A stretch of 64,000 nt of DNA from Puia dinghuensis (GTDB taxonomy: Bacteria; Bacteroidota; Bacteroidia; Chitinophagales; Chitinophagaceae), in contig JAMFSL010000209.1 in the NCBI GenBank assembly GCA_026225275.1, forward strand, positions 1 through 64,000. Direction: 5' to 3'. This document shows positions 39,615-59,700 of the stretch, one piece after another. The notes under the pieces were generated by a model. That model saw only the letters and a program-made list of their open reading frames with translations. It searched no databases and was not told the origin of the DNA. Each line of letters starts with the position of its first letter. Positions within the stretch are counted from its first letter, which is position 1. A program made the position numbers and the translations under genes.

Positions 39615-41753
39615 CTAATTGACGAGAATCTCGTCTGCAAAGACAAATCCCCGCGTTCCTTTGGCGGGATGCCAGTCCGGTAATTTTGGAACCGGGGTCA
39701 TGACCAGTTTAATGCACTTTAGCCGGGTGGGCTTAAAATTCAAATCATAACCGGTGAGGTAGGATGGTGCTTTTGCGGAGGGCTGTTCCGGCGTCATACG
39801 GGTCAGCAGGGTCAGGGCTTGCGGATTGTTTCCGCCCCATACTTCGATTGACAGCGGCGGCATTATCGTACTACCGATATCGACCAGCGAGGAGATCGTA
39901 AGGCTTTGGGCCATGACCGGCGAATGAAATAGCAGCAGGCATTCCAACGGCTGTCTGCTGGACCCCAGCCATTTTCCGCTACGAAAACCAAGGTCGCCCT
40001 TTACGTGATCAATGAGGATTTTTGGATCATACTTCCGGTAGTCTGAATCGACGGGTTGAAGGAGCATGATCGAATCGGGCCGGAACCGGCCGCTGAAAAA
40101 CCGGGCGCTGACCTCATCACTGCTCAACCATCCTTTCTTAAATGCTTTTGCTTTCAGGGTGACGCCGGATCTCAATACGAGATCATGGTGATAGATCGCG
40201 GATCGAAGACTGTCGGGGTCCGTCCCATCCGTCGTATAGCGGATAACAGCACCTGGTACATAATGTTTGAGGTTTACTGCGAGGGTATCTTCCAATATCC
40301 GCTCTTCATTTTCCAGTATGGGCGCGTTCAACTTCACCGTCATTGTATCCGTGCGGGAGCCGGCATAGACCAGCGTTCCGGTATGCAGCTTTTGCAGGCC
40401 TGCTGCCTCGTCGGGAGTGATAGGGGTGTTCCAGATGATGAGTTGTTTCAGGTCTTTGAGGCCGGTGAGCTTTTCGATATCGGCGGCCTGGATACCGGTT
40501 CCGGACAGTGCGAGTATTTTCAGTTTCGACAGCCTGGCCAATTCAGCTACCCCATGGCCAGTGATCCTGGTAAAGGAAAGATTGAGTTTGCGCAGATTGG
40601 TGAACTGACTGATCGTTTTACAATCTTCATCGGTGACGGGCATCTTGTCCAGATCAATATTCACCACCTGTGTTTTAAGCGGCAACAGTTCTTTCAACTG
40701 GTCCGACCGGAAAGCGGCGACGCCGAAAAAATCGACTTCGAGGGCCGGGGAGCCTGTTGCCAAAGGATAGATGGCGCAGTAATTGGTATTGAGTTTATGG
40801 ATCTCTTTTTCGTCTGCCTGGGTAAAATCATATGCTTCTTCCAGGGCTGGCTGCAAAAATCCTGTGGCCAGCAGGCGTAGCGAGTCTTGTGGCGGGAGGT
40901 CAATGACCTTTTGGTTAAAATCCGAACCATGTTTTATCCAGGCAGCCATAACGGCTGCTTCTGATTCGGTTAGCTGTGGTTTACCGGATGGCGGCATGTG
41001 TTTTTTTTCTTCGGGTGAAAGATGGATACGTTCCATCATCAGTCCCAGGTCCTGTGCCGTGCTGTCCCACAATTTGCCGTCCTTTCCTCCCTTCAGCAGA
41101 GCATCTCTGGTCTCCATGACCAATCCTCCCTTGGCTTTATTGCTGTTGTGACAGGACATGCATTTGCTGTCGAGGATCGGCTGGATGATGTCTGTATATA
41201 CCACGGCGGTTTCCAGTGGCGCCCGCTGATGATTATGGGTCACCGGCGCGAGCACGAAATTTTCTCCATGGGTGATATCGCCGCCTAAATGGCCGGTCAG
41301 TGTGATACCAACGGTCAGGATAATAGCGGCGGCTCCGGACCATAGCCGATGTTGCTGTACCTGACGGCGAAAAGTATAGAGCGCGCAAAGGCCAACAGAT
41401 ATTCCTATTCCCATCCATTGATGCCAGCCGATGACGCCCGTATCGTAGCCGGGTTCTCTGGACAGCAGCAGGCCCATGATAGCGGTGAGGACTGCGGTGA
41501 ATGCCGCGGATAATAATAAGACTTCTGCTATGGGGTCGGGCTGGTCGGCGCGGGTGTAGCCGGTCATGAACAAAAGCCAGGCTGCATATAGAATGCACAA
41601 TACGATCGGAAAATGCAGGATGAGGGGATGCATCCTGCCAAAAACGTCCAGCCACGGGGGGACTATTAACCTGCCGGAAAGGAGACCCAGAAAGAGTAGA
41701 ACACTGTTTAGGGGGATGAGCAATAATACAATACTGTTCTTTAGTTTCCTCAT
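39615..41753 (-). CDS. Membrane c-type cytochrome with leucine-rich, chitobiase-C-like and discoidin-like regions
   Basis: 712 residues. Five N-terminal membrane helices in a DUF2231-like arrangement (about 5-27, 43-63, 77-97, 111-127, 138-155), then a PSCyt1-type haem domain (CMSCH, 198-202, with KCMSCHNSNKAKGGL), a short leucine-rich-like region (about 340-450; LTGLKDLKQLIIWNTPIT), a chitobiase/CHB_HEX_C-type domain (about 500-565; IRYTTDGTDPDS) and a C-terminal beta region resembling a galactose-binding fold. An inner-membrane anchored redox protein that might bind carbohydrate, as an inference. Last gene of the five-gene operon, 23 bp after the propeller gene. Confidence 0.75.
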   Translation of the reverse strand: MRKLKNSIVLLLIPLNSVLLFLGLLSGRLIVPPWLDVFGRMHPLILHFPIVLCILYAAWLLFMTGYTRADQPDPIAEVLLLSAAFTAVLTAIMGLLLSREPGYDTGVIGWHQWMGIGISVGLCALYTFRRQVQQHRLWSGAAAIILTVGITLTGHLGGDITHGENFVLAPVTHNHQRAPLETAVVYTDIIQPILDSKCMSCHNSNKAKGGLVMETRDALLKGGKDGKLWDSTAQDLGLMMERIHLSPEEKKHMPPSGKPQLTESEAAVMAAWIKHGSDFNQKVIDLPPQDSLRLLATGFLQPALEEAYDFTQADEKEIHKLNTNYCAIYPLATGSPALEVDFFGVAAFRSDQLKELLPLKTQVVNIDLDKMPVTDEDCKTISQFTNLRKLNLSFTRITGHGVAELARLSKLKILALSGTGIQAADIEKLTGLKDLKQLIIWNTPITPDEAAGLQKLHTGTLVYAGSRTDTMTVKLNAPILENEERILEDTLAVNLKHYVPGAVIRYTTDGTDPDSLRSAIYHHDLVLRSGVTLKAKAFKKGWLSSDEVSARFFSGRFRPDSIMLLQPVDSDYRKYDPKILIDHVKGDLGFRSGKWLGSSRQPLECLLLFHSPVMAQSLTISSLVDIGSTIMPPLSIEVWGGNNPQALTLLTRMTPEQPSAKAPSYLTGYDLNFKPTRLKCIKLVMTPVPKLPDWHPAKGTRGFVFADEILVN

Positions 41754-41776
41754 AGTTCAGCCGCTGTTGCCCGTCG

Positions 41777-42802
41777 TTATACTCGCTTTAATTTATACGG
41801 ATATACCTTACCCGATGCCCACTGGGCAACGTAGAGATTTTCATCGCGGTCCACGCAAACATCGTGTGGATGAACGAAAATTTTATCTGTTTGGGTCATT
41901 GGTTGCAAAGTACCATTTGTGTAGACGGGCTCGCCGCCGCCGATATTGCTGACGACGCGGTTGTCCTTGTCCAGGATGGTGACAAATCCGGTGCCTACTG
42001 CATTGAGGTCAGGAGACCGGAGTACGGCGGCATATAAATAATCGCCGTGGATGACGGGTCGGCATACGCAGGCTCCCGGCAGTTTGATCTGGGATTTCAA
42101 TGTTCCCTCCCGGGTGAATACTTTGAAACAATGGCGGGTTCTGTCGGTGATGAGCAGGTCATTGCCGCCATTGCGCCGGTCGAACCAGATGCCGTGGGCA
42201 TTATCGAAATGTTCGTCGCCGTCGCCACGGCCGCCGAAATAATTTTTTAGGTTGCCTTTGCTATCATAGTGCATGATGAATTGCTTGCCATAACCATCGG
42301 CGACGAAGATGTCTCCATTCTCATCGATGACGGTTTCGGTAGGGACGAATTCTTCGGCTTTGTCATATTTGCCTGTTGCGAGTGGGGCGTCGATCGTGAG
42401 TAAGAGTTGTCCGTCCATCGTGGTCTTATAGACCTGGTGTTTAACCGTATCGGTGATGTAGAGGAAATCCGTTCCATTTTCATTGTGCAGGGTCAGGCCG
42501 TGGCCGCCGGGGAAGTCGTGGCCCCAGGTTGTGAGCAGCTTACCGCTCGTACTGTAGATGAGGATATTATTTTTTGTTTCATTCGTCAGCAGGATAATCC
42601 GGCCTTTTTTGTCCTGCACCATTTCATGGCAGTCATTGACGGGATATTTGTCTTTGTCGCATCGGCTCCAACGGGTGTCGAGGGTATACTGCATATTATT
42701 GTAGCCGTATATTTTTCCTTTTGCGCTGGCCATGAGATCGTGCATGATAAGCAGGCTTCCTGTCGTCAGGGATACGCCGCGGATGAATTGTTTGCGTTTC
42801 AT
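41777..42802 (-). CDS. Exported NHL/6-bladed beta-propeller protein
   Basis: 341 residues. N-terminal KRKQFIRGVSLTTGSLL is a Tat-like or Sec signal with a lysine/arginine pair; the rest consists of NHL-like propeller repeats (DIFVADGYGKQFIMHYDSKGNL; HPHDVCVDRDENLYVAQWASGKVY). ATG 42802 is preferred to a TTG six codons upstream that touches the DUF1501 stop. Function unknown, but peptidylglycine- or sugar-metabolism-associated NHL propellers with this signal recur beside DUF1501 genes. Confidence 0.75.
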   Translation of the reverse strand: MKRKQFIRGVSLTTGSLLIMHDLMASAKGKIYGYNNMQYTLDTRWSRCDKDKYPVNDCHEMVQDKKGRIILLTNETKNNILIYSTSGKLLTTWGHDFPGGHGLTLHNENGTDFLYITDTVKHQVYKTTMDGQLLLTIDAPLATGKYDKAEEFVPTETVIDENGDIFVADGYGKQFIMHYDSKGNLKNYFGGRGDGDEHFDNAHGIWFDRRNGGNDLLITDRTRHCFKVFTREGTLKSQIKLPGACVCRPVIHGDYLYAAVLRSPDLNAVGTGFVTILDKDNRVVSNIGGGEPVYTNGTLQPMTQTDKIFVHPHDVCVDRDENLYVAQWASGKVYPYKLKRV

Positions 42803-42816
42803 ATTATTTTCGGTTT

Positions 42817-44262
42817 TCAAGCGATCAGTCCGTCGACGACCTTTCCTGCTACGTCGGTCAGGCGGTAGCGCCGGCCCTGGCTTTTGAACGTCAGCTTTTC
42901 ATGATTAAGGCCCATGAGGTGGAGGACGGTTGCATGGAAGTCGTGTACGTGTACCGGGTCTTTCGTGATGTTATAGCCAAAGTCATCCGTCTCGCCATAC
43001 ACGCCGGGTTTGACGCCGCCGCCTGCCATCCATATGGTAAAACATCTTGGGTGGTGGTCCCGGCCATAGTTGTCTGTGGTGAGGGTACCCTGGCAGTAGT
43101 TCGTTCGCCCAAATTCGCCGCCCCAGATCACGAGTGTTTCATCCAACAATCCTCTTTGCTTCAGGTCCAGCACCAGTGCGGCGGATGCCTGGTCGGCGTC
43201 TTTGCATTGACCTTTTATTTCATAGGGCAGGTTGTTATGTCCATCCCATCCCTGGTGATATAGTTGTACGAACCGCACTCCGGACTCCGATAATTTTCTC
43301 GCCAGCAGGCAATTGGCGGCAAAGGTGCCGGGGATCAGACAATCGGGTCCATAAAGTTTAAGTGTGTCTTCGGGTTCCTTAGACAGATCCGTGATTTCGG
43401 GTACGGCCGTCTGCATGCGGTAGGCCATTTCATATTGCTGGATCTTCGTGCTGATCTCGGGATCGCCGAATTCTTTGTATGAATTTTCGTTGAGCATGGC
43501 TAATTTATCCAGCATCTTTCGCCGGTCCTGTCTATCCATTCCATCGGGGTCATTCAGATAGAGCACCGGATTTTCGCCGCTGCTGAATTGGACACCCTGG
43601 TGGATCGAATCCAGAAATCCGTTCGTCCATAATTTTGAATAGACGCCCTGGCCGTTGCCTTTTCCTTTCGATAGCAGGACACAGAAGGCAGGGAGGTTTT
43701 TGTTTTCGCTTCCCAGCCCATAGCTTAGCCAGGCGCCCATGCTTGGACGATTGCCTACTTGTGCGCCTGTTTGGAAGAAGGTGAGTGCGGGATCGTGGTT
43801 GATGGCTTCTGTATACATGCTTTTTACAAAACAGAGATCGTCGACTACTTTCGATGTGTAGGGTAGTAGTTCGCTGATCTGGGCGCGTGCCTGACCATAT
43901 TCGCCGAAGCGGAAGAAAGTCCCGGCCAGCGGGAATTTCGCCTGGGTAGCGGTCATTCCCGTCAGTCGTTGTCCCTGGCGTACCGACTCCGGCAGATCCT
44001 GGCCGTGCATTTTCTGTAGCAGGGGTTTATAGTCAAAGAGGTCCAGTTGTGAGGGAGCGCCATTCTGGAAGAGGTAGATGATCCTTTTCGCACGGGGGGC
44101 AAAATGTGGCAAGCCGATGGCGGTGGTTTCTTCTTCTGTTCCTGAGAAGAGATCGGGGATGAGGAGGGAGCCGAGGGCGATGCCGCCGATGCCGATGCCC
44201 AAGCCGGCGAGGAACCGGCGACGGTTCATGTTCAGGTGGCGTTCGATTATTTCTCTTTCCAT
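42817..44262 (-). CDS. DUF1501 protein, Tat-exported
   Basis: 481 residues. A twin-arginine signal (NRRRFLAG, R14-R16, then a Gly-rich hydrophobic stretch) precedes the DUF1501 domain, a sulfatase/alkaline-phosphatase-superfamily-like fold (GAPSQLDLFDYKP; SEGVRFVQLYHQGWDGH-like; VIWGGEFGRT; HHPRCFTIWMAGGGVKPG). DUF1501 proteins are almost always coded beside DUF1549/DUF1553 cytochromes, as here (9-bp gap). Substrate and reaction are not known; metal-dependent hydrolysis is a guess from fold. Confidence 0.88.
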   Translation of the reverse strand: MEREIIERHLNMNRRRFLAGLGIGIGGIALGSLLIPDLFSGTEEETTAIGLPHFAPRAKRIIYLFQNGAPSQLDLFDYKPLLQKMHGQDLPESVRQGQRLTGMTATQAKFPLAGTFFRFGEYGQARAQISELLPYTSKVVDDLCFVKSMYTEAINHDPALTFFQTGAQVGNRPSMGAWLSYGLGSENKNLPAFCVLLSKGKGNGQGVYSKLWTNGFLDSIHQGVQFSSGENPVLYLNDPDGMDRQDRRKMLDKLAMLNENSYKEFGDPEISTKIQQYEMAYRMQTAVPEITDLSKEPEDTLKLYGPDCLIPGTFAANCLLARKLSESGVRFVQLYHQGWDGHNNLPYEIKGQCKDADQASAALVLDLKQRGLLDETLVIWGGEFGRTNYCQGTLTTDNYGRDHHPRCFTIWMAGGGVKPGVYGETDDFGYNITKDPVHVHDFHATVLHLMGLNHEKLTFKSQGRRYRLTDVAGKVVDGLIA

Positions 44263-44271
44263 ATGTTTTTC

Positions 44272-46614
44272 CTATGTCTTTGTAATCGCTTCCTCCATAT
44301 TATAGATCAGGCCGATGGTTTTCATCAGTGCTGCGACGTTATCGTTCTTTTGTTTAGAAGGATATTCGCCTACGTTGAGGGTTTTTTCCGGATCGAGTTT
44401 CTTTTCTTTATAGGACTTTAATTGATCCTCATAATAATCTTTTAGAATGGCCAGTTCGTTTGGCGCAGGCTTGCGGCAGATGATCAGGCGGAAGGCCTTG
44501 CCAATGGCTGTTTCGGGATTTGAGTTGTTGGCGCCGGAGGAGCCGTTGGCGCCCGAGGAGAGATCCTGGGCCAGTACCCGGGATGCTTCGAGGACCGTAG
44601 GGTCGTTCATCATCACCAATGCCTGCAGGGGGGTGTTCGTTTTGCTGCGCCGGACTTCGCATTGATCACGGTTGCTGGCGTCGAAGATTCCCATTCCGGG
44701 TGGGGGCACCGTCAGCTTGATAAAATTGTATAGCCCCCGTCTGTACAGCGAATCATGGTGATCCTGTTTGTAGGTCGCGAGGACGCCTCTTCCGGAGGAG
44801 GCAGATTCCCACAGTCCTGCGGGCTGATAAGGTTTTATGCTTGGGCCGCCGATCGTTTTCACGAGCAGGCCGCTGCTGGCCAGGACCATGTCCCTGATAA
44901 ATTCCGCCTGCAGGCGCATCCTTGGGCCGCGGGATAAATAAGCGTTGTCGGGATCTTTTTGCCGTTTTTCTTGCGTGGATTTTGCAGATTGGCGGTAGGT
45001 AGCTGACATCAAAATCTGTTTGACCAGGCGTTTGACATTCCAGCCGTTGTCCATAAAGTCAACTGCCAACCAGTCCAGTAATGCGGGATGCGTAGGCAGG
45101 TCACCCTGCATGCCGAAATCCGCCGAACTTTTGACCATTCCCCGGCCGAAGATCTCTTGCCACAGCTGATTGACGAAGACTCTTGCCGTCAGTGGGTTTT
45201 GTCTGCTGATCGTCCATTGGGCGAGTCCGAGGCGGTTACGGGGCAGCTTTGTTGTATCGAAGGCCATGATAGCGGGCATCGGCGAAGGCCTTACTTCGAC
45301 CGTAGGGGCGTCATATCTTCCCCGGCTGAGGACATAGGTGCTGCGGGCTGTGTCGCGTTCACCCATGACCGATACCATCAGCGTCGCCGTATCCTGGTCA
45401 TTGAGGAAAGAGAGTTCCTTTTTGCGGTCTTCCTGATCGATATACAGGATGGGCATTTTAGCTGGTTTTGACACTGAGACGTCGCCCTCATACCCCACTT
45501 CCTTCGTATTATTGAAAAACGCCAGCAGCGAATAATAGTCCTTCTGGGTGAAAGGATCGTACTTGTGATCATGACATTGTGCGCATTCGATCGTTACGCC
45601 GATGATGGCTCTGCCGTAGGTCTTCGTCTTGTCGAGCAGGTATTCTATCCGATATTCTTCGGGGATGACGCCACCTTCCTCCGTGTACTTGTGATTTCTA
45701 AAGAAAGCGGTGGCCAGAATTTGTTGCTTCGTGGCGGCGGGCAGCATATCGCCTGCTATCTGCCATTCAACAAACGTATTGTAGGGCATATTTTCATTAA
45801 AGGCATGGATGACCCAATCCCGCCAGGGCCACTGGGTGCGGATGTTGTCGTCCTGGTAGCCATAGCTGTCGGCATAGCGGGCTACGTCCATCCAATGCAC
45901 GGCCATCTTCTCGCCGTAATGCGGGCTTTGCAACAGCTGGTCGATTACTTTTTCATAGGCGATGTCCGAGGTATCGGCCAGGAAGGCGTCCATCATTTCC
46001 AGTGAAGGTGGTAGTCCGGTGATATCGAAGCTGGCTCTTTTTAGCAATCGTTCTTTGTCCGCGTCTTCATTGGGTGTCAGTCCCAGGGTGGTGAGTTTAT
46101 CGAGGATAAAATAATCGATCTCGTTTTTCGGCCATTTTGAGTCGCCTGCTTTGGGTAAGGGAGCTTTTACAGGTGAGGTGAAAGCCCAGTGTCTTTCATA
46201 TTTCGCACCTTGTGCGATCCACTTTTCGAATAATTGGGTTTCATGATCTGTCAGGGCGCCCAGGTGGGCATCGGGAGGCGGCATGAGATAGCCGGGGTCG
46301 ACCGACCGAACTCTTTTGATCAGTTCGGATTTATCGGGATGTCCCGGTACGATGGCAAAAGCTCCTTTGTTGTCGCTGAGTTCGGCATAGGCGCTTTCTG
46401 CCATATCGAGGCGTAGATGGGCTTCGCGGTGATTGGGATCGGGTCCATGACATTTAAAGCATTTGTCCGAGAGAACGGGGCGGATGTCGAAATTATAGCT
46501 GACCTGATCGGGGAGGTCCGGGGATTTGTCTTTTGACGAGTGAAGGCATGCGGAGAAGCAAAGGATGGCCGCTCCTATAGAGGCAGATACAAAATAAATG
46601 GCTCCGGCACGCAT
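44272..46614 (-). CDS. PSCyt1-DUF1549-DUF1553 c-type cytochrome lipoprotein
   Basis: 780 residues. Lipobox FSAC gives lipidated C23; PSCyt1 haem motif CFKCH at 52-56 with HREAHLRLD downstream; then DUF1549 (about 150-360; ERLLKRASFDITGLPPS, YGEKMAVHWMDVARYADSYG) and DUF1553 (about 490-750; NPLTARVFVNQLWQEIFGRG, YRQSAKST). A Gly/Ser/Asn-rich insertion (about 697-708) is not typical. Start ATG 46614 gives a clean signal; a TTG 31 codons upstream would overlap the preceding gene. Probably works with the DUF1501 protein in an envelope redox complex. Confidence 0.88.
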   Translation of the reverse strand: MRAGAIYFVSASIGAAILCFSACLHSSKDKSPDLPDQVSYNFDIRPVLSDKCFKCHGPDPNHREAHLRLDMAESAYAELSDNKGAFAIVPGHPDKSELIKRVRSVDPGYLMPPPDAHLGALTDHETQLFEKWIAQGAKYERHWAFTSPVKAPLPKAGDSKWPKNEIDYFILDKLTTLGLTPNEDADKERLLKRASFDITGLPPSLEMMDAFLADTSDIAYEKVIDQLLQSPHYGEKMAVHWMDVARYADSYGYQDDNIRTQWPWRDWVIHAFNENMPYNTFVEWQIAGDMLPAATKQQILATAFFRNHKYTEEGGVIPEEYRIEYLLDKTKTYGRAIIGVTIECAQCHDHKYDPFTQKDYYSLLAFFNNTKEVGYEGDVSVSKPAKMPILYIDQEDRKKELSFLNDQDTATLMVSVMGERDTARSTYVLSRGRYDAPTVEVRPSPMPAIMAFDTTKLPRNRLGLAQWTISRQNPLTARVFVNQLWQEIFGRGMVKSSADFGMQGDLPTHPALLDWLAVDFMDNGWNVKRLVKQILMSATYRQSAKSTQEKRQKDPDNAYLSRGPRMRLQAEFIRDMVLASSGLLVKTIGGPSIKPYQPAGLWESASSGRGVLATYKQDHHDSLYRRGLYNFIKLTVPPPGMGIFDASNRDQCEVRRSKTNTPLQALVMMNDPTVLEASRVLAQDLSSGANGSSGANNSNPETAIGKAFRLIICRKPAPNELAILKDYYEDQLKSYKEKKLDPEKTLNVGEYPSKQKNDNVAALMKTIGLIYNMEEAITKT

Positions 46615-46651
46615 CGTCAGATTGTTTGATACAAAAGTTACGATTTTATGA

Positions 46652-48490
46652 TCATTCTTTGATGAACGACCGGGTATATTTTGATTCGGCGGAGGAGATT
46701 TGGACAAAATACGCTCCGGGCCGGTAGTTGCTTACCGGAACGTCTACGATACTGCCTGCGACTCCGCTGATCCGGCTGATCATTCTGCCTTGTGCATCAA
46801 AGATGGCAATCGTCAACTGACCTGTGCCGGTGGTGAGAATGTGTAGCATGTCCGTTGTGGGAATCGGGTACATGCTGATAGAGACAGCTAGGTTGGCGGC
46901 GGCGTCAAAGGTCCGGATGCCGCTATAGGTCAGGCTGCCGTCCGTATTGACGATTTCAAGGCGATAGTAATTGAGGCCTGCTGCGGGCTTGCTGTCTATA
47001 TAAGTATAATCTTGTGTGGTCGGGGCATCCGTCTGTGCTTGTACGGCGCCGATGAGAGAAAAATTGTTGCCATCCGTACTGTGCTCGACATTAAAATGAT
47101 CGATGCCGGTTCCGTCCTGGATAGTCCAATCGAGCACTGCGGAGCCTTGCTGGCCGCCCGATACCGTGAAGTCCGATATGACCACCGGAAGGGTGACGGG
47201 TGTCGTGCTGTAGACGATCGAATAATAACCGTTCGGCAGATTACTTGCGGTGACCGCAAAGGAGACCGTCCCGCCGGATACCGTAGTGGATAGCGTCGAT
47301 ACGGTGGAGTTCGTACCGGTGGCGAAGGAGCCATCGGTAGCATTATAGAGCATGGAGTACGTTGTAGCGGGATTGGGTGAGCTGCCATTATAATCCGCGA
47401 AATTGAAATTGACCGTCACCTGTCCCGACGTATTGCCGCCCGATTCCTGCATATACCAGGATCTGTTCCAACGGCTGAGGCTGGTGGCGCTGGTGACACC
47501 GGGAATCGTAGCGGGGCTGATGACCGCATTGCTTTGGCCGTTGTGGGCAGCCATCAGGAAACCTGCGGTGTTGAGAAAGCCAGACGTTCCGCTGCTGCTG
47601 GAGAAGCCGAGACCATCCGTGGCGCCTGAAGCATTACTGAGTACGTTATCTGTCGAGCTGGTATACCCGATGCCGACGAGGTTCTTATTGAACGATGCGG
47701 CTGAGGGCGGGTTAAAGATCGTGTAGCCTGACGTCGGTAACTGGGATTCGAGGTTCCAGGCGGCGGCTTCATAGTTTTCGAGCAGCCTCCGTTGGGTATT
47801 ATTGAGTAAGCTGCTATAAGCTATCAGTTCGTATACAGGGTCATTATTATACATACCCCTGCTCATAAACGTATTGCTGATGGAATAAGTATTGTTCGTC
47901 GCTGATGCTGCTTCGTCCACCAGGATATGTGTCGCCGTGGTGCCTGTGAGGCTTTGCACGCCATTGATCCACATCGTCGAGGGACTGCCGGTGGCATCGC
48001 ACCAGTCATTGCCATTAGGGCCGTCGGTATAGCTGACGTTACCGGTGCTGCTGGAGCCCGCATACCGGATGCTGAAATCCGTCAGGGCCGGCGATGAAAA
48101 TAAGTACTGATAGCTGGAGCCCAGATTCGTGCGGGCGCTGACGATCGTTTGGTAAGCGCCGGTAGGGCCTGTCATGTATTCACTAGTATTCTGGAAGATG
48201 ACGGCGGAGTTGCCATTGAGGGCATTCGTCTTCAGGACGGGTTGGGTTCCGCTGGTGGCCTGGACGGCGTGGTGGTTATTACCGCTCTTATCTATCCATT
48301 TGGCGATAAAGTCACCATTGGCGGCTTGCGAACCACTGGGATTTTGAAGGGTCGTCGGGTCTGCGGCGGTCAACCATAGTGCGAGGTTGGAATTACCGAG
48401 CCCGGCGGGGTAATATTGAGCGCTGGCGGACATGCAGGTGATCGCCAGGGTAAGGGTAATAAAGAATAGGTGGTGTATAAGTGGTTTCAT
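46652..48490 (-). CDS. T9SS-secreted protein with type A (Por) sorting domain
   Basis: 612 residues: signal peptide (to about residue 25, SASAQ), a concanavalin/LamG-like N-terminal domain (LALWLTAADPTTLQNP; AKWIDKSGNNHHAVQA) of the kind found in many Bacteroidota exoproteins, a beta-rich middle, and a C-terminal Por-type sorting domain (MYPIPTTDMLHI; VPVSNYRPGAYFVQI). Exported by type IX secretion. First gene of the operon leading to the DUF1553/DUF1501 genes, 37 bp before the next start; perhaps the surface recognition component of that system. Confidence 0.82.
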   Translation of the reverse strand: MKPLIHHLFFITLTLAITCMSASAQYYPAGLGNSNLALWLTAADPTTLQNPSGSQAANGDFIAKWIDKSGNNHHAVQATSGTQPVLKTNALNGNSAVIFQNTSEYMTGPTGAYQTIVSARTNLGSSYQYLFSSPALTDFSIRYAGSSSTGNVSYTDGPNGNDWCDATGSPSTMWINGVQSLTGTTATHILVDEAASATNNTYSISNTFMSRGMYNNDPVYELIAYSSLLNNTQRRLLENYEAAAWNLESQLPTSGYTIFNPPSAASFNKNLVGIGYTSSTDNVLSNASGATDGLGFSSSSGTSGFLNTAGFLMAAHNGQSNAVISPATIPGVTSATSLSRWNRSWYMQESGGNTSGQVTVNFNFADYNGSSPNPATTYSMLYNATDGSFATGTNSTVSTLSTTVSGGTVSFAVTASNLPNGYYSIVYSTTPVTLPVVISDFTVSGGQQGSAVLDWTIQDGTGIDHFNVEHSTDGNNFSLIGAVQAQTDAPTTQDYTYIDSKPAAGLNYYRLEIVNTDGSLTYSGIRTFDAAANLAVSISMYPIPTTDMLHILTTGTGQLTIAIFDAQGRMISRISGVAGSIVDVPVSNYRPGAYFVQISSAESKYTRSFIKE

Positions 48491-48708
48491 AGAATCAAAT
48501 TATCGGGGGTAGAGTGTCAAAAAGGATGCAACTTTATAATTAGTTGAATTTTAGTCGTTTGGGGAATTGATTATTTCCCATATTGGGAGTGGGTTCCGAA
48601 AAATAGGGTTGGGGAGTAGGGAAAGGGGAAATAATTTTTATTTCCAGGCAACATTTCTTCCTTTGCGTCCATCTCACTACTACAAAAGCTAGTTTTAATA
48701 GGAAAAAA
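48491..48708. other. Divergent intergenic region, T9SS protein / sigma factor
   Basis: 218 bp with no gene. Divergent promoters are expected, but I see only partial matches: TTTG 48662-48665 and TAGTTTTA 48690-48697, spaced 24 bp, which is too wide. No operator-like palindrome was recognised. Confidence 0.4.
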
Positions 48709-49257
48709 TTGACGGACAAGCAATTGATTGAAGGCTGTTTGAAGGGAAATATCAAAAGCCAGCGTAACCTTTATGACCATTTTAAAGGCAAGATGATGGC
48801 TATATGCCGGAGGTATGCCGCTGATTTAACGGAAGCAGAAGATATGCTGCAAGAGGCCTTTATAAAGATCTTTACCAATATAGGTCAATACCGGTTTGAC
48901 GGGGCGCTCGAAGGCTGGGTCAGACGGATTGTTGTCAATACCGCTCTCGAAGTTTTGCGAAAGAGGCTTATTCGGTTTACCGATATCGATAGGGAGACGG
49001 AGGAGCTTGCGTCGCCGGATACTGATGTCATCGCTGCATTGAGTGTCGGGGATCTCCTGAAGCTTATATGCGAGCTGCCCGATGGTTATCGGGTGGTCTT
49101 CAATCTCTACGTGATTGAAGGCTATGACCACAATGAGATAGCTGACTTACTGGGCATCAATCCCGCCACCAGCCGCAGTCAACTGCTGAAGGCTAAGCGG
49201 GTTCTTCGGGAGCAGATTGAATATATTAATAGAGTACCCAACACATATGCACCGTAA
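48709..49257 (+). CDS. ECF RNA polymerase sigma factor
   Basis: 182 residues. Region 2 (DHFKGKMMAICRRYAADLTEAED, MLQEAFIKIF) and region 4 (LPDGYRVVFNLYVIEGYDHN, EIADLLGINPATSRSQLLKAK) are clear. The start is TTG at 48709, preceded by AGGAAAAAA, since no ATG or GTG in frame restores the family N-terminus (xTDKQLIEGCLKGN). It overlaps by 11 bp the gene for a putative membrane-spanning partner, likely its regulator. Target promoters are unknown; the divergent operon is the obvious candidate. Confidence 0.9.
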   Translation: MTDKQLIEGCLKGNIKSQRNLYDHFKGKMMAICRRYAADLTEAEDMLQEAFIKIFTNIGQYRFDGALEGWVRRIVVNTALEVLRKRLIRFTDIDRETEELASPDTDVIAALSVGDLLKLICELPDGYRVVFNLYVIEGYDHNEIADLLGINPATSRSQLLKAKRVLREQIEYINRVPNTYAP

Positions 49258-50725
49258 CGACACTAAATACAATCAACTATTCCGCGACCGGTTCCGGGAT
49301 CACTCCCTCCCGGTCCGTGAAGGCCTGTGGTCGCGCATCCATAGCGGTATCAAGGGCATCCGTCCTGTTTCACAGGTTTCACGTCCAAGTTTTCTCAGGA
49401 TGGCTGTTCAATATGCGCGGGTGCATGCCATGGTGGTTGGAGCGGTTGGTGCGGCAACGGTGGGGGTGATCGTTGGGGTCATTTATTTTTCTCATCCGGC
49501 GAAGCCTTTACGTCCGGGTGTTGCGATAGCGCCGGGCAAGGTGAGTGAAGGGGCGGGGGCGTCACGGGGGGTGGCTGGTCAAGGGGTGGATGATCAAGGG
49601 GATGCTGTTCGAGGGGTGGCTGCCCGGGATAGTGCTGCTCGAGGGGATGCTGCTCGTCAACATGCGGTGACTGATGAAGGGGATGCTGCGGCGAGTACGA
49701 CATCGACTACGACATCGAATGCGGCTACTGGGAACGGGGCTGTCGCTTCTGGAATTGGGGCTACCGGGAACGGGGCTGCCGCTTCTGGGAGTGGGGTTAC
49801 CGGGACTGGGGCTACCGCTTCTGGGACTGGGGCTGCCGCTTCTGGGAATGGACGTTTGAGCGGGCGGGGGCCTGGCCATCAAAAGCATTTTGTTTCCGGG
49901 CATTCCAGGAGTTCTTCCCATCTTGCGGTTCGCGATGCGGCTGCCGGGAGGGTAGCCGATCGGGCTGGCGAAGGGGTAGTCGATGGGGCTGGTGAAGGGG
50001 TAGTCGAAGGGGCTGGTGTTTCCGGGACGGTACCTGGAAGCTTACGGGCGGGGGGGGCTGCTGCTGTCAGACTACCGGCTCTTGCGAATACCAGTAGCCG
50101 CGCTATGATCACGGCACGTCCTATTTTTCCACGGTCTCAGAAATCCAGGCTTAACGATTACGCGAACGGGTCCAAGAGTCGTGCAGGGGTTGTACCTTTT
50201 CGAAAAAAGGCTTTTCGAAGAACGGGATATGTATCGATATACAGCTCCGTAGACTTTCCGACCAGTCGTTATTATACATGGTCCAATACCACGGGTTTCC
50301 GTCTAACCTTCGAGTTTAGTCTGCGCTGGTCGTTCACCGCCGGATTGGAATATGGCAGGGTCAATGTACCGAGAGAGCTGAACCTTCCCGGAGACCCACC
50401 CATGAACGCTTTTCACTTTTCAAATTATGAAGTCCCCCTCCTCCTCGGCTACAGGAAAACATTCCGCCGGTCTGAGCTGACCATCAACGCGGGCGCGATC
50501 CTTAATCTTTATGCCCACACATCCACCAGCAGCTTTACCGACAACTGGCCCAACCGCGACTCCTATGGAGCTGTCCTGGGCGCAGATTATTCCTACTCGC
50601 TGGGTCGCCATCTGGCCGTTTTTGGTCAGCCATACGTCCGCTACAGCATCAGCGATTACCGAATGTTCATTCAGTCCCAGCGGTATACGTTGGGTACGCT
50701 GCTGGGGGTGAGATATCAGTTATAG
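49247..50725 (+). CDS. Putative bi-membrane-spanning protein (inner-membrane helix, repeat linker, outer-membrane beta-barrel)
   Basis: 492 residues. A short cytoplasmic N-terminus (1-59) is followed by one membrane helix (60-81, AMVVGAVGAATVGVIVGVIYF), a 220-residue Gly/Ala/Ser/Thr-rich linker with tandem repeats (82-300), and a C-terminal region with alternating aromatic beta-strands typical of an outer-membrane barrel (about 330-492; FRLTFEFSLRWSFTAGLEYGR, YSISDYRMF). No signal peptide for T9SS or Sec other than the helix. Position after the sigma factor suggests an anti-sigma or sensor role: the N-terminus could bind the sigma factor. ATG 49247 preferred; a TTG at 49217 is possible. Confidence 0.65.
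   Translation: MHRNDTKYNQLFRDRFRDHSLPVREGLWSRIHSGIKGIRPVSQVSRPSFLRMAVQYARVHAMVVGAVGAATVGVIVGVIYFSHPAKPLRPGVAIAPGKVSEGAGASRGVAGQGVDDQGDAVRGVAARDSAARGDAARQHAVTDEGDAAASTTSTTTSNAATGNGAVASGIGATGNGAAASGSGVTGTGATASGTGAAASGNGRLSGRGPGHQKHFVSGHSRSSSHLAVRDAAAGRVADRAGEGVVDGAGEGVVEGAGVSGTVPGSLRAGGAAAVRLPALANTSSRAMITARPIFPRSQKSRLNDYANGSKSRAGVVPFRKKAFRRTGYVSIYSSVDFPTSRYYTWSNTTGFRLTFEFSLRWSFTAGLEYGRVNVPRELNLPGDPPMNAFHFSNYEVPLLLGYRKTFRRSELTINAGAILNLYAHTSTSSFTDNWPNRDSYGAVLGADYSYSLGRHLAVFGQPYVRYSISDYRMFIQSQRYTLGTLLGVRYQL
49725..49857 (+). repeat. Imperfect tandem repeats in the linker coding sequence
   Basis: Units of about 36 bp (half-unit about 18 bp) of the form GGGAACGGGGCTGCCGCTTC code Gly-Ala-Ser-Thr repeats such as ATGNGAAASGSG. 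Repeats differ by single bases, so copy number could vary in frame. Confidence 0.8.
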
Positions 50726-50763: not shown

Positions 50764-51948
50764 TTATATTAATCGTTTGAGTTTGATTTTTGTTTGCATT
50801 TTGACGCCAGCTTTTGTCAGGTACCGGATGTCAATCATTGTCCCTTCGCTACTATTTAAGAGCTGTCTATATTTTTCCAGGCTGCCGTTTTCAATGTTAT
50901 TAATAGCGAGTATCCTTTGCCCTATTCGTAATCCTTTCTGATATGCGCTGCTGGTTGAAACTACACCTGAAATTAAAATTCCTCCATTCTTTGATTCCAG
51001 GGCTAACCCACTTACCGGAAAGTCGGTTTTTCTGTGGTATGAATTGTTTGGTTTTAAAAAAAGTTTGTTGGTGGAATAGTCCAGGATGAAATTAAAACGG
51101 CTGATTATTTCGTTACCCACCAAGCCTAGATAATTGTCAAATGCATTGACTCCTTCTTTTGCTGAAGAAAGCAGAATGGGCATCTCGCCGAATTCATAGC
51201 CTCCCAATCTTATAGATTTGATAACAGCTATTTCTGCATTGGACTTACCTGTCATACCTTCCATTTCCTGCGAAATGGTTTTACCGATCCGGGTCTTCAG
51301 GCGGGTTTTAATTTTGTAAGGGGTATTGACCATTACTGAGCCGCTAAACCCGCAGTCAAACAAAACTTTCCCGGTTAATCTTTGCCCGTTTTCCAATTCC
51401 ATTGTCACCGTGAATTCCGGAACTCCAATTTTGTCATCAAAATCAATTTGAGTGTATCCTTGTGTGTCAAGAGGCGTATTGAAATTGAAAAGACTCATTT
51501 TATTGCTGTCGTAATCAATCTTCGTTATATATTTTGATAAAATGGAATAGCCGATTAAGCCATAAAAATTGATGCCTAATTTATTTCTCAACGTTGTCAG
51601 ATCGAGTATTACACATGGTGTACTATCAAGAATCGTGTTATTGTTCAGATGAATGAATTGGTTTGATGCTATACGATACTTTTTTGAACCGCCTGCACCT
51701 ACTTTTTCATCTTCGGAATCGGGGTTGACCCCTAATTTCACTGCCATTGCGGAATCCAATAAAGTTGCTGTCGCTCCCGAATCAAAATAAAATAAGACAC
51801 TATCGGCTTTATTGTTGATGGTCAGTTGTAGAATAATATTTGTGTTGGCATATTTTACAAATGGGATTTGTGCAACTTGGCCGAAGGCAAAACAAAATTG
51901 ACCCAGGAGAAGGGTTGTGAAGAAGAGGTGTTTAAGGTTCATTTTCAT
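50764..51948 (-). CDS. Secreted retropepsin-like/PDZ protein, paralogue of the 14.4-kb gene
   Basis: 394 residues with signal peptide (to about residue 23). Two half domains of the aspartyl-protease fold and a C-terminal PDZ domain (about 300-394) align in order with the earlier paralogue, but the catalytic triads are altered: DSG at 56-58 and DCG at 198-200 instead of DTG. DSG occurs in some active family members; DCG is rarer, so activity is uncertain. Base composition is clearly AT-richer than that of the paralogue. Confidence 0.78.
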   Translation of the reverse strand: MKMNLKHLFFTTLLLGQFCFAFGQVAQIPFVKYANTNIILQLTINNKADSVLFYFDSGATATLLDSAMAVKLGVNPDSEDEKVGAGGSKKYRIASNQFIHLNNNTILDSTPCVILDLTTLRNKLGINFYGLIGYSILSKYITKIDYDSNKMSLFNFNTPLDTQGYTQIDFDDKIGVPEFTVTMELENGQRLTGKVLFDCGFSGSVMVNTPYKIKTRLKTRIGKTISQEMEGMTGKSNAEIAVIKSIRLGGYEFGEMPILLSSAKEGVNAFDNYLGLVGNEIISRFNFILDYSTNKLFLKPNNSYHRKTDFPVSGLALESKNGGILISGVVSTSSAYQKGLRIGQRILAINNIENGSLEKYRQLLNSSEGTMIDIRYLTKAGVKMQTKIKLKRLI

Positions 51949-54037: not shown

Positions 54038-54628
54038 GTGGAGATCCTACATACATTCGATGAAGCCGCGTTGTTTAAGCGCATCGCTCAAGGCGATGAA
54101 GCGGCTTTCCGCCAGGTTTTTCACTACTACAATAAAAAACTTTTTCCGGTCGTGGTCAGTCTGGTTCGATCAGAATCCGATGGCCGGGAAATTATCCAGG
54201 AAGTTTTTATTAAATGCTGGCTTAACCGTGAGAATCTGCCAGAAATGGCCAATCCTGGCGGCTGGCTCTACACTGTCGCATGTAACTCTGCTTATGATTT
54301 TATCCGCAGCATGGCCACCTATCAGGTAAAACTGAGCCAATTGCCGGTGATGGACGTTGATCAAGACCTGGAACAACAGCTCGATGCCAAATATACCAAG
54401 ACTTTGATCGACGAGGCGGTTGCTCATTTGCCCCAGCGCCGTCGCCAGGTGTTTCAAATGGCTCGTCTGGAAGGTTATAGCCGAAAGGAAATTGCCGAAA
54501 AGTTGGACATTTCTGAGCATACCGTTCGCAATCAACTCGTTGAAGCCGTGACATTTGTACAAGAGTACCTCGAAAAACACGCCTGTGTTTATCTTCCGGC
54601 ATTGATCATTTGTTTGAACCAATGGTAA
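54038..54628 (+). CDS. ECF sigma factor of the SusC/D-associated type
   Basis: 196 residues with region 2 (GDEAAFRQVFHYYNKKLFPVV; EIIQEVFIKCW) and region 4 (LPQRRRQVFQMARLEGYSRK; EIAEKLDISEHTVRNQLVEA). Start is GTG at 54038, the only suitable start. It is followed by FecR and a SusC protein carrying an STN signalling domain, i.e. the FecI-FecR-FecA-like trans-envelope circuit in which uptake of the ligand releases the sigma factor. Confidence 0.92.
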   Translation: MEILHTFDEAALFKRIAQGDEAAFRQVFHYYNKKLFPVVVSLVRSESDGREIIQEVFIKCWLNRENLPEMANPGGWLYTVACNSAYDFIRSMATYQVKLSQLPVMDVDQDLEQQLDAKYTKTLIDEAVAHLPQRRRQVFQMARLEGYSRKEIAEKLDISEHTVRNQLVEAVTFVQEYLEKHACVYLPALIICLNQW

Positions 54629-54698
54629 TTTATTTTCTCGGCCGATAGTACAAAGCGAAGTGCACAGCCGTTTCTTCTCCATTAAGCAGGCATACACC

Positions 54699-55976
54699 AT
54701 GAATCAATCCTATTGGAAAGAACAATTGAATAAATATCGGGCGCGCTCTTTATCTAGTGCGGAAGAAGAGTTGCTGTGGGACGCATTGGCCGATGCGACG
54801 AATGCCGAGGGGTGGAAGCAGATCATGGAGGAGATATTCATGGAGCAGACTCCGGAAGAAAAATATCAAATCAGTGATTGGGAACCTGTGCTTGAGGCGG
54901 TGTTTCAATCGGACAGAACGTTACCATCCACGGTAAAGCATCAAATACCGTCACTTTTGCGTTACGCTGTGGCTGCTGTCTTTTTTGCCTTGTTGGGAAC
55001 GGGAACCTGGTGGATGATAAACCGGCGAACAGCCAAAGCGCCTGAGATGGCGCAGCGCTCGAAATCTATTGATGTTTCTGCTCCTGCCACGAACCGGGCG
55101 ATGATTACGCTCGGCAATGGGCAGCAGGTTTATCTGGACAGTGCAATTAATGGCGCCCTGGCACAGCAAGGCAATGCTCAACTTGTGAAAGAGGCTAATG
55201 GTCGAGTGGCCTATAAAGTGGACAATGTAACTAGCCGGGAGTTGCTCTATAACACATTGACCAATCCACGCGGTAGCCGCGTGGTGACTCTCACGCTCAG
55301 CGATGGCACGAGAGTATGGCTTAATGCGGAGAGCTCCCTTCGCTATCCTGTAATATTCAGTGGGCAAGATCGGATAGTTGAAATAAGGGGAGAAGGGTAT
55401 TTCGAAGTAAAGAAAAAAGAGGATCAGCCTTTTATAGTCCATGTAGAGAATGGACCGAAAATTGAGGTTTTGGGCACGACCTTCAATGTAAATGCTTATC
55501 CCGACGAAATTAAAATTAAAACAACATTGCTGCAGGGGTCCGTCCGCGTAGCCTTAGCCACATCACCCAGTGTTGGTGTTAACCTCAATACTGATGATCT
55601 AAGTGTTGTTCTCAAACCCGGGCAGCAGGCCTGGCTTGCAAGCCAAAAGATCAGCGACGGCGCGGGAAGTACTAAGGGTGTCGGAAATAACGCTCACCAA
55701 TTGATTGTGCTGAACAAAGCTGACACTTCCGAGGTCCTGGCTTGGAAGAACGGGCTCTTTGCCTTCCACGATGCCGATTTGCCTTCCGTGATGCGTCAGT
55801 TAGCTCGCTGGTATAACATTGATGTGACTTATGAAGGCCTTATTCCGAAGGAGAAGTTTCAGTTCAACGGAAAAATGGGCAAAGACCTTTCGCTGGACAA
55901 TGTGCTCGATCTCTTGACCAATGCACAAGTGCATTTCCGGATCGAGGCGGGTAATAAATTAGTGATCAGGCCATGA
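54699..55976 (+). CDS. FecR-family anti-sigma factor
   Basis: 425 residues. Cytoplasmic N-terminus (1-85) to hold the sigma factor, membrane helix (about 87-107), FecR domain (about 190-290; NPRGSRVVTLTLSDGTRVWLN, RIVEIRGEGYFEV) and C-terminal DUF4974 (about 350-425; LPSVMRQLARWYNIDVTYEG), which contacts the STN domain of the receptor. ATG 54699 preferred over a GTG 13 codons upstream. Confidence 0.93.
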   Translation: MNQSYWKEQLNKYRARSLSSAEEELLWDALADATNAEGWKQIMEEIFMEQTPEEKYQISDWEPVLEAVFQSDRTLPSTVKHQIPSLLRYAVAAVFFALLGTGTWWMINRRTAKAPEMAQRSKSIDVSAPATNRAMITLGNGQQVYLDSAINGALAQQGNAQLVKEANGRVAYKVDNVTSRELLYNTLTNPRGSRVVTLTLSDGTRVWLNAESSLRYPVIFSGQDRIVEIRGEGYFEVKKKEDQPFIVHVENGPKIEVLGTTFNVNAYPDEIKIKTTLLQGSVRVALATSPSVGVNLNTDDLSVVLKPGQQAWLASQKISDGAGSTKGVGNNAHQLIVLNKADTSEVLAWKNGLFAFHDADLPSVMRQLARWYNIDVTYEGLIPKEKFQFNGKMGKDLSLDNVLDLLTNAQVHFRIEAGNKLVIRP

Positions 55977-56024
55977 TTCAATAGAAAAGAACCTTCCTAT
56001 CTAATTCCTATCTGATTTAACGAT

Positions 56025-56041
56025 TGTACATTTCATGTACA
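56025..56041. promoter_or_regulatory. Inverted repeat TGTACAT-TTC-ATGTACA
   Basis: Perfect 7-bp arms 48 bp after the fecR stop, in the 259-bp fecR-susC gap. Role unknown; possible operator or hairpin. Confidence 0.35.
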
Positions 56042-56127
56042 GCTCGGCCTCCGGCCGGCTTGGACTGCATGATATTGAGCCCATCTGCAATGATTAACAG
56101 AACGGGTAAAGGGTGAGCTTATAACAA

Positions 56128-56163
56128 AAAACCGGGTTCAGATTGGACACCTTTCCCGGTTTT
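56128..56163 (+). terminator. Terminator-like hairpin between fecR and susC
   Basis: AAAACCGGG (56128-56136) pairs with CCCGGTTTT (56155-56163), 18-nt loop. The T run is inside the stem, so termination may be partial. It separates the regulatory genes from the transport genes, which likely have their own sigma-dependent promoter. Confidence 0.5.
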
Positions 56164-56235
56164 AGTTCAGGTTAACCCTAACGAACAAGGTTTGCGCCAC
56201 TGCTTATTATTTTAACCCAAACACAATGCAAAAGT

Positions 56236-59200
56236 ATGCAAATTGACGCTCTTTGCAAACCCTCCTTCCATGCCCGGAAGCAAAGGTGGGAATGCGTAAC
56301 CAAAACGTTGTTAGTTATGAGGCTAACAGGCATCATTTTAATGGCTGGATTTTTACAGGTCAGCGCCCATGGCTCGGCACAAACCGTCACCTACCAGGGA
56401 GAGGCTGTGCCATTAACGCAAGTATTATCCGTTCTGGAGAAACAGACCGGCTACGTCTTCTTTTATAATAGCCGAGACCTGGAAGGGACTGTTCCGGTAA
56501 CAGTCAATCTGAAGAATGCGTCTTTAGAAGAAGCGTTAAAGGCTATACTTTCCGGACAGTCTCTAAAATTTGTCATTAAAGGCAATACTATTCTAATCAC
56601 CAGGCCTCAAACTACGGCACTTCAGTCCGTGGACTCTCTCCCACGTAAGTCCGCGGTTGATCTTCACGGGCGAGTCACAGATTCAGCGGGAGCGCCATTG
56701 TCCGGGGCATCAGTAAGCTTAAAAGGAATCAGGTACAACACCTCCACTGATAATAAAGGGAATTTTAGTTTTCCATCTGTACCACAAGGCCAGTATACCT
56801 TGATAGTGAGCTATATTGGCTATGCAAAAACGGAAAGTAAAATAGTTATAGATGGTAAAACATTGAATGTAACAATTGTTTTGCATACAGCATCATCTGC
56901 CCTTGACCAAATCCAGGTAATTGCCTATGGTACAGAATCCAAGCGCTTTAGTATTGGGTCTGTCACTACGGTTAACGCCGATATTATAGAAGAGCAGCCT
57001 GTAACCAATCCGATATTGGCATTGCAAGGGCAGGTCCCCGGGCTGGCTATTAATTCAACCAGTGGGGTGCCGGGGTCACAGGTATTAGCGCAAGTAAGAG
57101 GACAGAACACGCTGCTTCCAAACACAAGTCTTCCCAAAGGTTATGATCAACCTTTATTTATCATTGACGGCGTGCCTTTTGCTCCTCAGAATAATGTTGT
57201 CAGTCAGCTGTACAGTCTTGCCAATGCACTACCTTCCAGCGGCGGTATTAGCCAGGGTGGCGGCATAAGCCCTTTTAATAACATAGATCCCAATGATATA
57301 GAAAGTATCAGTGTCCTCAGGGATGCGGATGCTACTTCTATTTATGGCACGCAAGGCTCCAATGGCGTTATCATTATCACCACAAAAAAAGGGAAACCCG
57401 GTAAAACGACCTTTGACCTTAACCTTAATTCCGGTTTCAATTCGGATGCGCGGCCGGTACAGCTGTTGAATACGCAGCAATATCTAAAGTTAAGAGAAGA
57501 CTCATATGCTTCCGATGGGCTCACACCTACCAGCAATCCTAATGACGTTTTAGGTTATGCGCCTGATTTAACTATTTTTGATCAGGATAAGTATACAAAC
57601 TGGCAAAAAGTCATTTATGGAAAAACGTCTAATAATACGGATATTCACGCCAGCCTATCTGGAGGCAATGCTAATACGACGTTCATTGTTTCTCCCGGCT
57701 ATACCCGGTCAGATTATAGTTTCCCCGGTAGCTTTGCCGACCAAAGAATGACTTTGCATAGTGCTTTGCACAGTAACTCGGTCGATAAACGGTTTACAAT
57801 TGACCTGGTTAGCGACTATGGTTACGATCAGAATAATTCTCTGGGTTTTGGAGCTGGACTGGATATTTTATTACCCCCAAATTTACCTAATTTGTTAGAT
57901 CCGGCCGGTAACCTGGTCTGGACTTATCAAGGGGTTGACCTAAGTGGGTACCAATTCTATAGCTATTTAAAAGAGCCCACCGATCTGCAAAATTATAATT
58001 TAAATCTGTCGTTAAATCTTTCCTATAAAATTCTGGAAGGTTTAACGATTGGTGCTAATCTGGGTTATAGCCGTAACACCTCATCAGAACGCTCCGAAGA
58101 CCCCGCCTCCGCGCAAAGTCCATTGTATGCTGCCAATGCTAATGCGAGCTTTGCCGCTAACGTCTATCAGACTATCAATATTGAACCGCAGCTGAATTAT
58201 ACAAAATCAATTGGGAAAGGATCGCTGACCGCTTTATTGGGCTCTACTTATAAAAAGAACAGCAATAATTCAACTATTAATTACGGATATGGTTATACTA
58301 ATGACAATTTACTTGGATCAATTCTTGGCGCTGCCACGGTATATGATGCGGATAATTCAACCATTTATAGATATAGCGGTGCATTTGCGCGTCTTAAATA
58401 TATTTATGATCAAAAATATATCATTGAAGCAACTGGTAACAGGGATGGTTCCAGTAATTTTGGCCCCGGGCGTCAATTCGGTAATTTCGGTTCTGTAGGA
58501 GCGGGTTGGATATTTTCTGAAGAAAAGGCATTCAAAGATGCCATTCCTTTCTTAAGTTATGGTAAACTGTCCGGCAGCTATGGCACAACAGGGTCCGATG
58601 GTATTCAGGGTTATCAATATCAGGCATTGTATCAGCCTTTCTCCTCTTTTCCTGCATTCCAGGGCATAAAACAAAGCTACCCTTACAATCTTTACAATCC
58701 TGATTATAGCTGGGCAACAAAAAAATCATTGAACGTTGCATTGGATTTTGGTTTTTTCAATAATCGCATCTTGTTAAATGCAACCTATTACAGAGACCGC
58801 GAAGGCAACCAGTTAGTAGGCTATGAATTGCCAGTACAAACAGGTTTTTCATCCGTATTGGGAAACCTAAATGCAGATATCCAAAACAAGGGATATGAAT
58901 TTTCGGCAACTTCAACCAACATAAAAACCAAGAATTTCACCTGGACAACTAATTTTAATTTAACATTTAACCGGAATAAGCTGCTGGCATTCCCTAACCT
59001 GGCAACGTCTTCCTATGCCCAACAGTACGTAATAGGCCAACCTACTTCTATTATATTCGGTTATCGGTATAAAGATGTAAACCCTACCACCGGGTTGTTT
59101 GAGTTTTACGATAGAAATGGCGATGTTACTTCTAATCCCATTTCCGAAACCGCCGCACAAGGTGGCGATGAAGTGCCGATTGCCAACAGGGAAGTTAACT

Positions 59201-59688: not shown

Positions 59689-59700
59689 GCAATCATTATC

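Follow-up and report, generated by a model that had tools for sequence, protein, structure and literature searches.

A predicted barrel-ended, Dma-type anti-sigma factor paired with an ECF sigma factor in Puia dinghuensis

The 64,000-nucleotide stretch of Puia dinghuensis DNA analyzed here (hereafter the window) carries an ECF sigma factor gene followed immediately by a gene for a 492-residue protein that looks like a distant member of the Dma/Das family of dual membrane-spanning anti-sigma factors and their cognate sigma factors. The reading that best accounts for the data as a whole, to which we assign a probability of roughly 85%, is that the two proteins form a Das/Dma pair, in which a barrel-ended anti-sigma factor would release its sigma factor upon an event at the outer membrane and the freed sigma factor would transcribe its own operon. 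Computation yields directly the gene pair, its architecture and fold, the promoter motif in front of it, and its family kinship. The concept of a dual-membrane anti-sigma factor is already published for Bacteroides thetaiotaomicron and the window adds a distant member, whose tether is unusual, whose barrel has short outer loops, and which lacks a partner gene.

Gene pair and architecture of the 492-residue protein

A preliminary description of this DNA had called an ECF sigma factor gene at 48709-49257 and a partner gene ending at 50725, and both calls hold (Table 1). The sigma open reading frame (ORF) scores above the Pfam cut-offs for both Sigma70_r2 and r4_2, and a TTG is also read as the start codon of a 60% identical sigma paralogue in the same genome. 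The frame of the partner gene is open from a TTG at 49217, which is its listed start; we prefer the ATG at 49247, which overlaps the sigma stop codon by 11 nt and gives a product of 492 residues, because of the position of the N-terminal motif and the starts of the relatives. Neither Pfam nor NCBIfam assigns this product to a family, with no Pfam match up to E 0.1 and no PDB sequence match at E ≤ 1, and Pfam detects no FecR domain in it, whereas the FecR protein encoded at 54660 of the same window scores 4e-14. The pairing is not a matter of chance: in many genomes the sigma factors of this clade are followed by a protein of the same architecture, and the promoter motif described below is nearly absent from shuffled sequences. 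The next gene, at 50764-51948 on the opposite strand to the Dma gene, codes for a PDZ-domain aspartyl protease.

Table 1. Features of the window locus, with examples from related loci
Feature	Coordinates or loci	Strand	Details
Predicted autoregulatory ECF promoter	48646..48674	+	AGGCAAC, 17 nt, CATCT; starts 63 nt 5' of sigma start
ECF sigma factor (Das-type), 182 aa	48709..49257	+	TTG start (inferred)
Dma-type anti-sigma factor, predicted dual-membrane span, 492 aa	49247..50725	+	ATG start
Presumed cytoplasmic anti-sigma motif, residues 5-36	49259..49354	+	two helices; W28 near-invariant
TM helix, residues 49-82	49391..49492	+	hydropathy and AlphaFold2
Gly/Ala-rich repeat tether, mostly disordered, residues 83-325	49493..50221	+	pLDDT, tandem DNA repeats
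Eight-stranded outer-membrane-type barrel, residues 327-491	50225..50719	+	AlphaFold2, fold matches
Putative lipoprotein genes of relatives (examples)	L141:8069-9049; L134:7985-8956		
Loci with tandem anti-sigma motifs	L069, L070, L072, L077, L082, L097, L112, L136, L141, L145, L148		

All four parts attributed to the partner at the outset, namely an N-terminal motif, one transmembrane (TM) helix, a repeat linker, and a C-terminal barrel, are recovered by AlphaFold2 and hydropathy. In a model calculated from an alignment of 28 sequences (the window protein and 27 relatives), helices span residues 5-18, 27-36, and 49-82, the last of which coincides with the single TM helix found by hydropathy, and residues 1-60 contain 12 Lys/Arg versus 4 Asp/Glu. 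The pLDDT falls below 50 over nearly all of residues 87-301, and eight strands, mostly with pLDDT above 90, follow between residues 327 and 491. The linker is present and of periplasm-crossing length as first described, with its extent corrected from 220 to about 243 residues (83-325 by the model); tandem DNA repeats occupy positions 49568-50018 within its coding region. Such a stretch of disordered chain has a contour length of about 87 nm, more than the width of the periplasm, so that the tether would be slack and would not transmit a shape change by itself. Among 70 related proteins measured (barrel match above 60 bits, helix score above 1.4, and linker over 50 residues, thus leaving out L151, whose start is misplaced), linkers run from 135 to 279 residues with a median of 186, so that each is long enough to cross the periplasm, and the linker of the window protein has the highest glycine fraction of all.

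Structure prediction of the C-terminal region bears out the proposed barrel, as the eight-stranded model resembles outer-membrane-type folds at Z-scores of 16.5-17.9. Its matches among solved structures include NspA (Z 17.9, rmsd 2.6 over 153 residues), OmpA (1bxw, Z 16.9), and OmpW (2f1v, Z 16.5), which share its fold and size at only about 11-13% sequence identity; unlike these proteins, the window barrel is fused to a predicted inner-membrane anti-sigma factor, and no Pfam domain was found in the 492-residue protein. Across 95 aligned barrels the even strand connections are short (median lengths of 4, 2, and 4 residues) and the odd ones long (medians of 25, 47, 27, and 10), the latter measuring 7, 14, 13, and 7 residues in the window protein. 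Short even turns combined with long odd loops are seen in outer membrane proteins with a periplasmic N-terminus, and in these barrels the pattern fits a chain that enters the outer membrane from the periplasmic side, where the tether arrives. In addition, the in/out alternation of hydropathy along the barrel strands exceeds that of shuffled controls (p = 0.0004).

Relatives in the Chitinophagaceae and kinship with Dma/Das

In the window's family, the Chitinophagaceae, a close relative of the sigma factor (E ≤ 1e-40) is present in 194 of the 294 genomes sampled. For comparative analysis we collected 203 loci, which are best hits rather than a random sample, and reduced them by sigma identity to 154. 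Within the window's own genome the sigma search returns ten hits at E ≤ 1e-26, followed by a gap to 5e-11, and seven of these ten have a partner with barrel evidence, which comes from the structural model for the window, from the barrel profile for C348, and from Pfam for five others (E 2.1e-5 or better, two of them passing the curated cut-off). C312 gives only a weak profile match; the partners of C365 and C240 are short and show no sign of a barrel. Altogether, the Pfam OMP_b-brl_2 cut-off is passed by one relative and two own-genome partners, with three more own-genome partners close to it. The C348 locus (L096:871-3147, minus strand) is a paralogous operon of a sigma factor gene, a Dma gene and, 15 nt behind the latter, a gene whose 759-residue product combines NHL repeats with a CHU_C type IX secretion domain. 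As a separate observation, the sigma relatives L119, L123, L124, L126, L127, L202, and the genome's own C365 (L091) are accompanied by partners of 260-345 residues in which a TM helix is predicted but no barrel was measured, possibly a shorter type of anti-sigma factor.

The Dma1/Das1 and Dma2/Das2 pairs of Bacteroides thetaiotaomicron were reportedly described by Pardue et al. in PNAS in 2024. According to PMC13088901, Dma proteins form a family of dual membrane-spanning anti-sigma factors described in that organism, consist of the same four parts, and are located beside ECF21 sigma factors; deletion of dma1 relieves the repression of das1, and dma2 shares its operon with das2 and a DUF4943 gene. 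Its authors suggest Dma2 as a glycan sensor and call what Dma proteins sense unknown. The window pair shares with these systems the adjacent ECF sigma factor, the N-terminal motif, the TM helix, the disordered tether, and the C-terminal barrel. It differs from them in coming from another bacterial family, in the 243-residue Gly/Ala repeat that makes up its tether, and in the lack of an operon partner gene. The initial view of a dual-membrane protein paired with the sigma factor thus stands as an architecture derived by computation and matched by Dma as PMC13088901 presents it, but the "direct signal line" that was to run through the protein calls for caution with so slack a tether.

Kinship was further examined through DUF4943, which occurs in 3 of 247 genomes searched. 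Two of the three DUF4943 loci have a sigma gene and a Dma-like gene directly upstream in the published order, on which gene order the "Dma2" identity of the two proteins rests, and the third (L295) is adjoined by neither. Profiles of the N-terminal motif and of the barrel, built from the window protein and its relatives, single out both Dma2-locus proteins in a set of 28 neighboring proteins (motif E 4e-6 and 1.9e-5; barrel E 3e-12 and 5e-8), and the window sigma factor is 38% identical to the sigma factor beside the Dma2-type gene in two genomes. Among named loci, those nearest to the window pair come from a Puia MAG and a Chitinophagaceae MAG. A search of the window genome for NigD (PF12667) gave no match.

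Some members of the wider group depart from the single N-terminal motif of the window protein. Two to five copies, each scoring above 14 bits, precede the TM helix in 11 of the 154 partner proteins (Table 1), and parsimony on a poorly resolved tree that holds ten of the 11 requires at least five changes of this trait. If each copy binds sigma factor, one barrel would hold several sigma molecules. The literature searched, the scope of which did not extend to the 2024 PNAS paper, holds no report of such tandem motifs.

Signaling through FecR and a TonB-dependent receptor controls an ECF sigma factor from the outer membrane via an inner-membrane anti-sigma factor. The predicted window system would resemble it in this respect, with one protein in place of two (FecR and a receptor with an STN domain). 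Replacement of the FecR and TonB receptor system, as originally envisaged, is nevertheless not what the DNA presents, as the pair stands beside a cluster of ECF sigma, FecR, TonB-dependent receptor, and SusD genes at 54038-61104 of the same window. This belongs to a plus-strand group at 54038-62295, about 3.3 kb downstream of the Dma gene, which comprises the ECF sigma factor, FecR, the TonB-dependent receptor with its STN domain, SusD, and a thioredoxin-like gene.

Promoter motif and downstream lipoprotein gene

A motif of the form AGGCARC-N17-YATC, counted here in the looser form GGCARC-N16-18-BATC, lies upstream of the das genes. Among loci with a strong barrel (barrel match above 100 bits) it precedes the sigma gene in 46 of 66, window included, with a spacer of exactly 17 nt in 45 of the 46, as compared to a mean of 0.06 and a maximum of 1 locus in dinucleotide shuffles of the same 66 upstream regions; the other 20 strong-barrel loci have no motif at the stringency used. 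It is seen in 3 of 43 loci with weaker barrels (L096, L130, and L131, all closely related to the window), in 3 of 29 loci without a measured barrel, all three on cut-off contigs, and in none of the 15 more distant sigma loci of the window's own genome (hits below 31% identity), one of the 154 loci having been left out for its short upstream sequence. The 15 distant loci look mostly FecR-type, the Pfam check covering the pair at 54038-55976. At the two das2-type loci AGGCARC-N17-YATC was not found, and only a looser TGCAGC followed by GTCTAA is discernible by eye.

The window site matches the motif with zero mismatches and scores 24.0 bits by a matrix derived from 49 other loci, with the next best site in the 64 kb at 12.2. 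On a genomic scale, the strict pattern occurs 22 times in the window's own genome versus 26 times for a reversed-pattern control, such that only placement is telling: 20 of the 22 matches fall inside ORFs (at least 90 codons, culled by the analyst), and the two outside begin 62-63 nt before the window sigma gene and its paralogue. Two of the in-ORF matches (L241 and L258) sit at the end of the ORF, with the next gene 103 and 89 nt away, and are thus candidates for additional promoters. A looser pattern gives 122 matches versus 51 for its reversed control and was not used for naming targets. In seven other genomes 43 sites compare to 14 for the reversed control; among 30 sites inspected, 3 precede das genes, 5 precede the lipoprotein gene discussed below, 19 fall within ORFs or at their edges, and the remaining 3 are non-coding and precede other genes, one of which encodes a different ECF sigma factor. 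A regulon beyond the operon was considered and, apart from the two candidate sites L241 and L258, rejected. Since the only two motif copies outside ORFs precede this sigma gene and its paralogue, the das-dma system looks self-regulating, which agrees with the increase of das2 by 4.54 log2 units upon dma2 deletion given in PMC13088901, a strong self-induction that the predicted autoregulation in the window would match. Scans with Rfam and PADLOC and for sigma-70 promoters and terminators yielded nothing useful.

Downstream of the Dma gene we examined 71 loci, 60 of which extend for at least 600 nt, and in 45 of the 60 the gene directly behind encodes a member of one putative lipoprotein family of 232-352 residues (examples in Table 1). 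The label is based on an N-terminal signal and an invariant cysteine; four of these proteins tested against Pfam match no family over the cut-off, and LPAM_1 appears, below its cut-off, in one of six downstream lipoprotein-like proteins tested. The end of the Dma gene carries a copy of the promoter motif in 19 of the 45 lipoprotein loci, whereas 30 shuffles of each gave none. The best lipoprotein match (E ≤ 7e-51) adjoins das-dma in all 20 genomes that the analyst chose for their strong das hits, and six of the 20 hold weaker matches elsewhere, one of which is nearly full-length (G215, E 4.6e-20). The window genome has no lipoprotein match at E ≤ 1e-5, and matches across the window's genus, found in 8 of 33 genomes, are all weak (best E 2e-13) and partial. 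The model of the lipoprotein is confident (pLDDT 85.6). Its first domain bears a weak resemblance to GAIN/ZU5 folds (Z 9.1, rmsd 3.5 over 145 residues) that tells nothing about function; the best Foldseek match of the model has an E-value of 0.009, with none under 0.001.

The presence of the lipoprotein gene goes together with a long second outer loop of the barrel. When the 95 barrels were tabulated against a profile search of their downstream DNA, 44 had both a loop of at least 40 residues and the lipoprotein, 35 had neither, 5 had the loop only, and 1 had the lipoprotein only (n = 85), the ten barrels left out for having less than 600 nt downstream including seven with a hairpin of 40 residues or more. 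In the sigma tree, 30 of whose 82 forks are open, the window belongs to a supported nine-member clade in which hairpin and lipoprotein are both missing, beside rows that have both. Well-supported branches of this tree offer one independent pair, with which a sign test cannot reach significance, and the co-occurrence, essentially a single event, is a lead rather than proof of a link. Some members of the window clade carry other secreted genes behind the Dma gene, which encode the NHL-repeat T9SS protein in L096, YCF48-like proteins in L133 (by Pfam) and L146 (by BLAST), and small proteins of lipoprotein look in L130 and L131.

Proposed mechanism and alternatives

From these features we infer how the sigma factor would be bound, how the barrel would be inserted, and how a signal would lead to release. 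The sigma factor would be held by the N-terminal two-helix motif of the 492-residue protein, which would be anchored once in the inner membrane, cross the periplasm by its disordered tether, and place its eight-stranded barrel in the outer membrane. The trigger would arise at the outer membrane, where an outer partner might be bound or lost or insertion of the barrel might fail, upon which the slack tether or the helix would probably be cut and the sigma factor freed. A tether that reaches without being able to pull by itself favors cutting or loss of the barrel end, and we consider cutting, tension, or failed barrel insertion likelier than a shape change transmitted along the tether. Once free, the sigma factor would use AGGCAAC-N17-CATCT at 48646 to transcribe its own operon, and would probably also act on the paralogous C348 operon, the promoter of which is nearly identical; in most strong-barrel relatives it would probably drive the adjacent lipoprotein gene as well.

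Within this scheme the nature of the trigger divides the possible readings. The barrel could serve as a monitor of outer-membrane assembly that has no outside ligand and reports its own insertion, with periplasmic proteases cutting the tether and freeing the sigma factor when insertion fails. This proposal, which we rate as tenable at somewhat below even odds, is suggested by the window clade, which keeps motif, helix, tether, and barrel but has neither the lipoprotein partner nor a long second loop on the outer side, leaving the window protein with its four short outer loops; a slack tether would likewise suit cutting over pulling. The long outer loops and lipoprotein of most strong-barrel relatives speak instead for an interaction with the outside in the wider group. 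In a second reading, a glycan, a lipoprotein, or a surface protein at the outer face of the barrel might keep or break the hold on the sigma factor, a proposal we regard as just as tentative a contender. The joint occurrence of hairpin and lipoprotein, the adjacency of the best lipoprotein match to das-dma in each of the 20 chosen genomes, and the glycan sensing suggested for Dma2 in PMC13088901 all point this way, but for the window itself its short outer loops and the lack of a lipoprotein match in its genome point the other way, and the tree contributes a single independent pair.

Other readings would change the place of the barrel or the reach of the sigma factor. Were the barrel to lie outside the outer membrane, the protein would be an ordinary anti-sigma factor that crosses the membrane once and, much as FecR does, exposes a soluble beta domain in the periplasm. 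No Pfam or NCBIfam match names it an outer membrane protein and its model is a prediction, but we deem this highly improbable, given that its nearest folds are integral outer membrane barrels, that the lengths of turns and loops and the alternation along the strands are in line with insertion, that one relative and several own-genome partners reach or approach the OMP_b-brl_2 cut-off, and that the FecR domain so evident at 54660 is missing from it. Just as improbable is control by the sigma factor of the neighboring cluster at 39.6-48.5 kb, the activation of which the preliminary description had anticipated. The divergent upstream gene at 46652-48490 does encode a predicted T9SS cargo protein, and the operon of the paralogue also includes a T9SS-type protein; against this, the best promoter score between 39.0 and 48.64 kb is 3.6 by the same matrix that gives the window site 24.0, and no motif match with up to two mismatches lies between 36.96 and 48.64 kb. 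As an observation in its own right, this minus-strand cluster (39615-48490) encodes an NHL-repeat protein, proteins with DUF1549/DUF1553 and DUF1501, and a PSCyt1 cytochrome protein that also contains leucine-rich repeats, in addition to the T9SS cargo protein; several of the domain names refer to Planctomycetes.

Returning to the Das/Dma pair as the preferred reading, a more speculative and rather doubtful extension would make the Chitinophagaceae systems a closed loop, in which the sigma factor drives sigma factor, barrel, and lipoprotein, and the lipoprotein resets or gates the barrel via the hairpin; the window clade would then be a bare barrel sensor left by joint loss of both, and relatives with two to five motifs would store several sigma factors. 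The pair extends to the Chitinophagaceae a family studied in gut Bacteroides, and the promoter motif, the lipoprotein neighbor with its own motif copy, and the co-varying barrel loop are concrete candidates for testing the signal.
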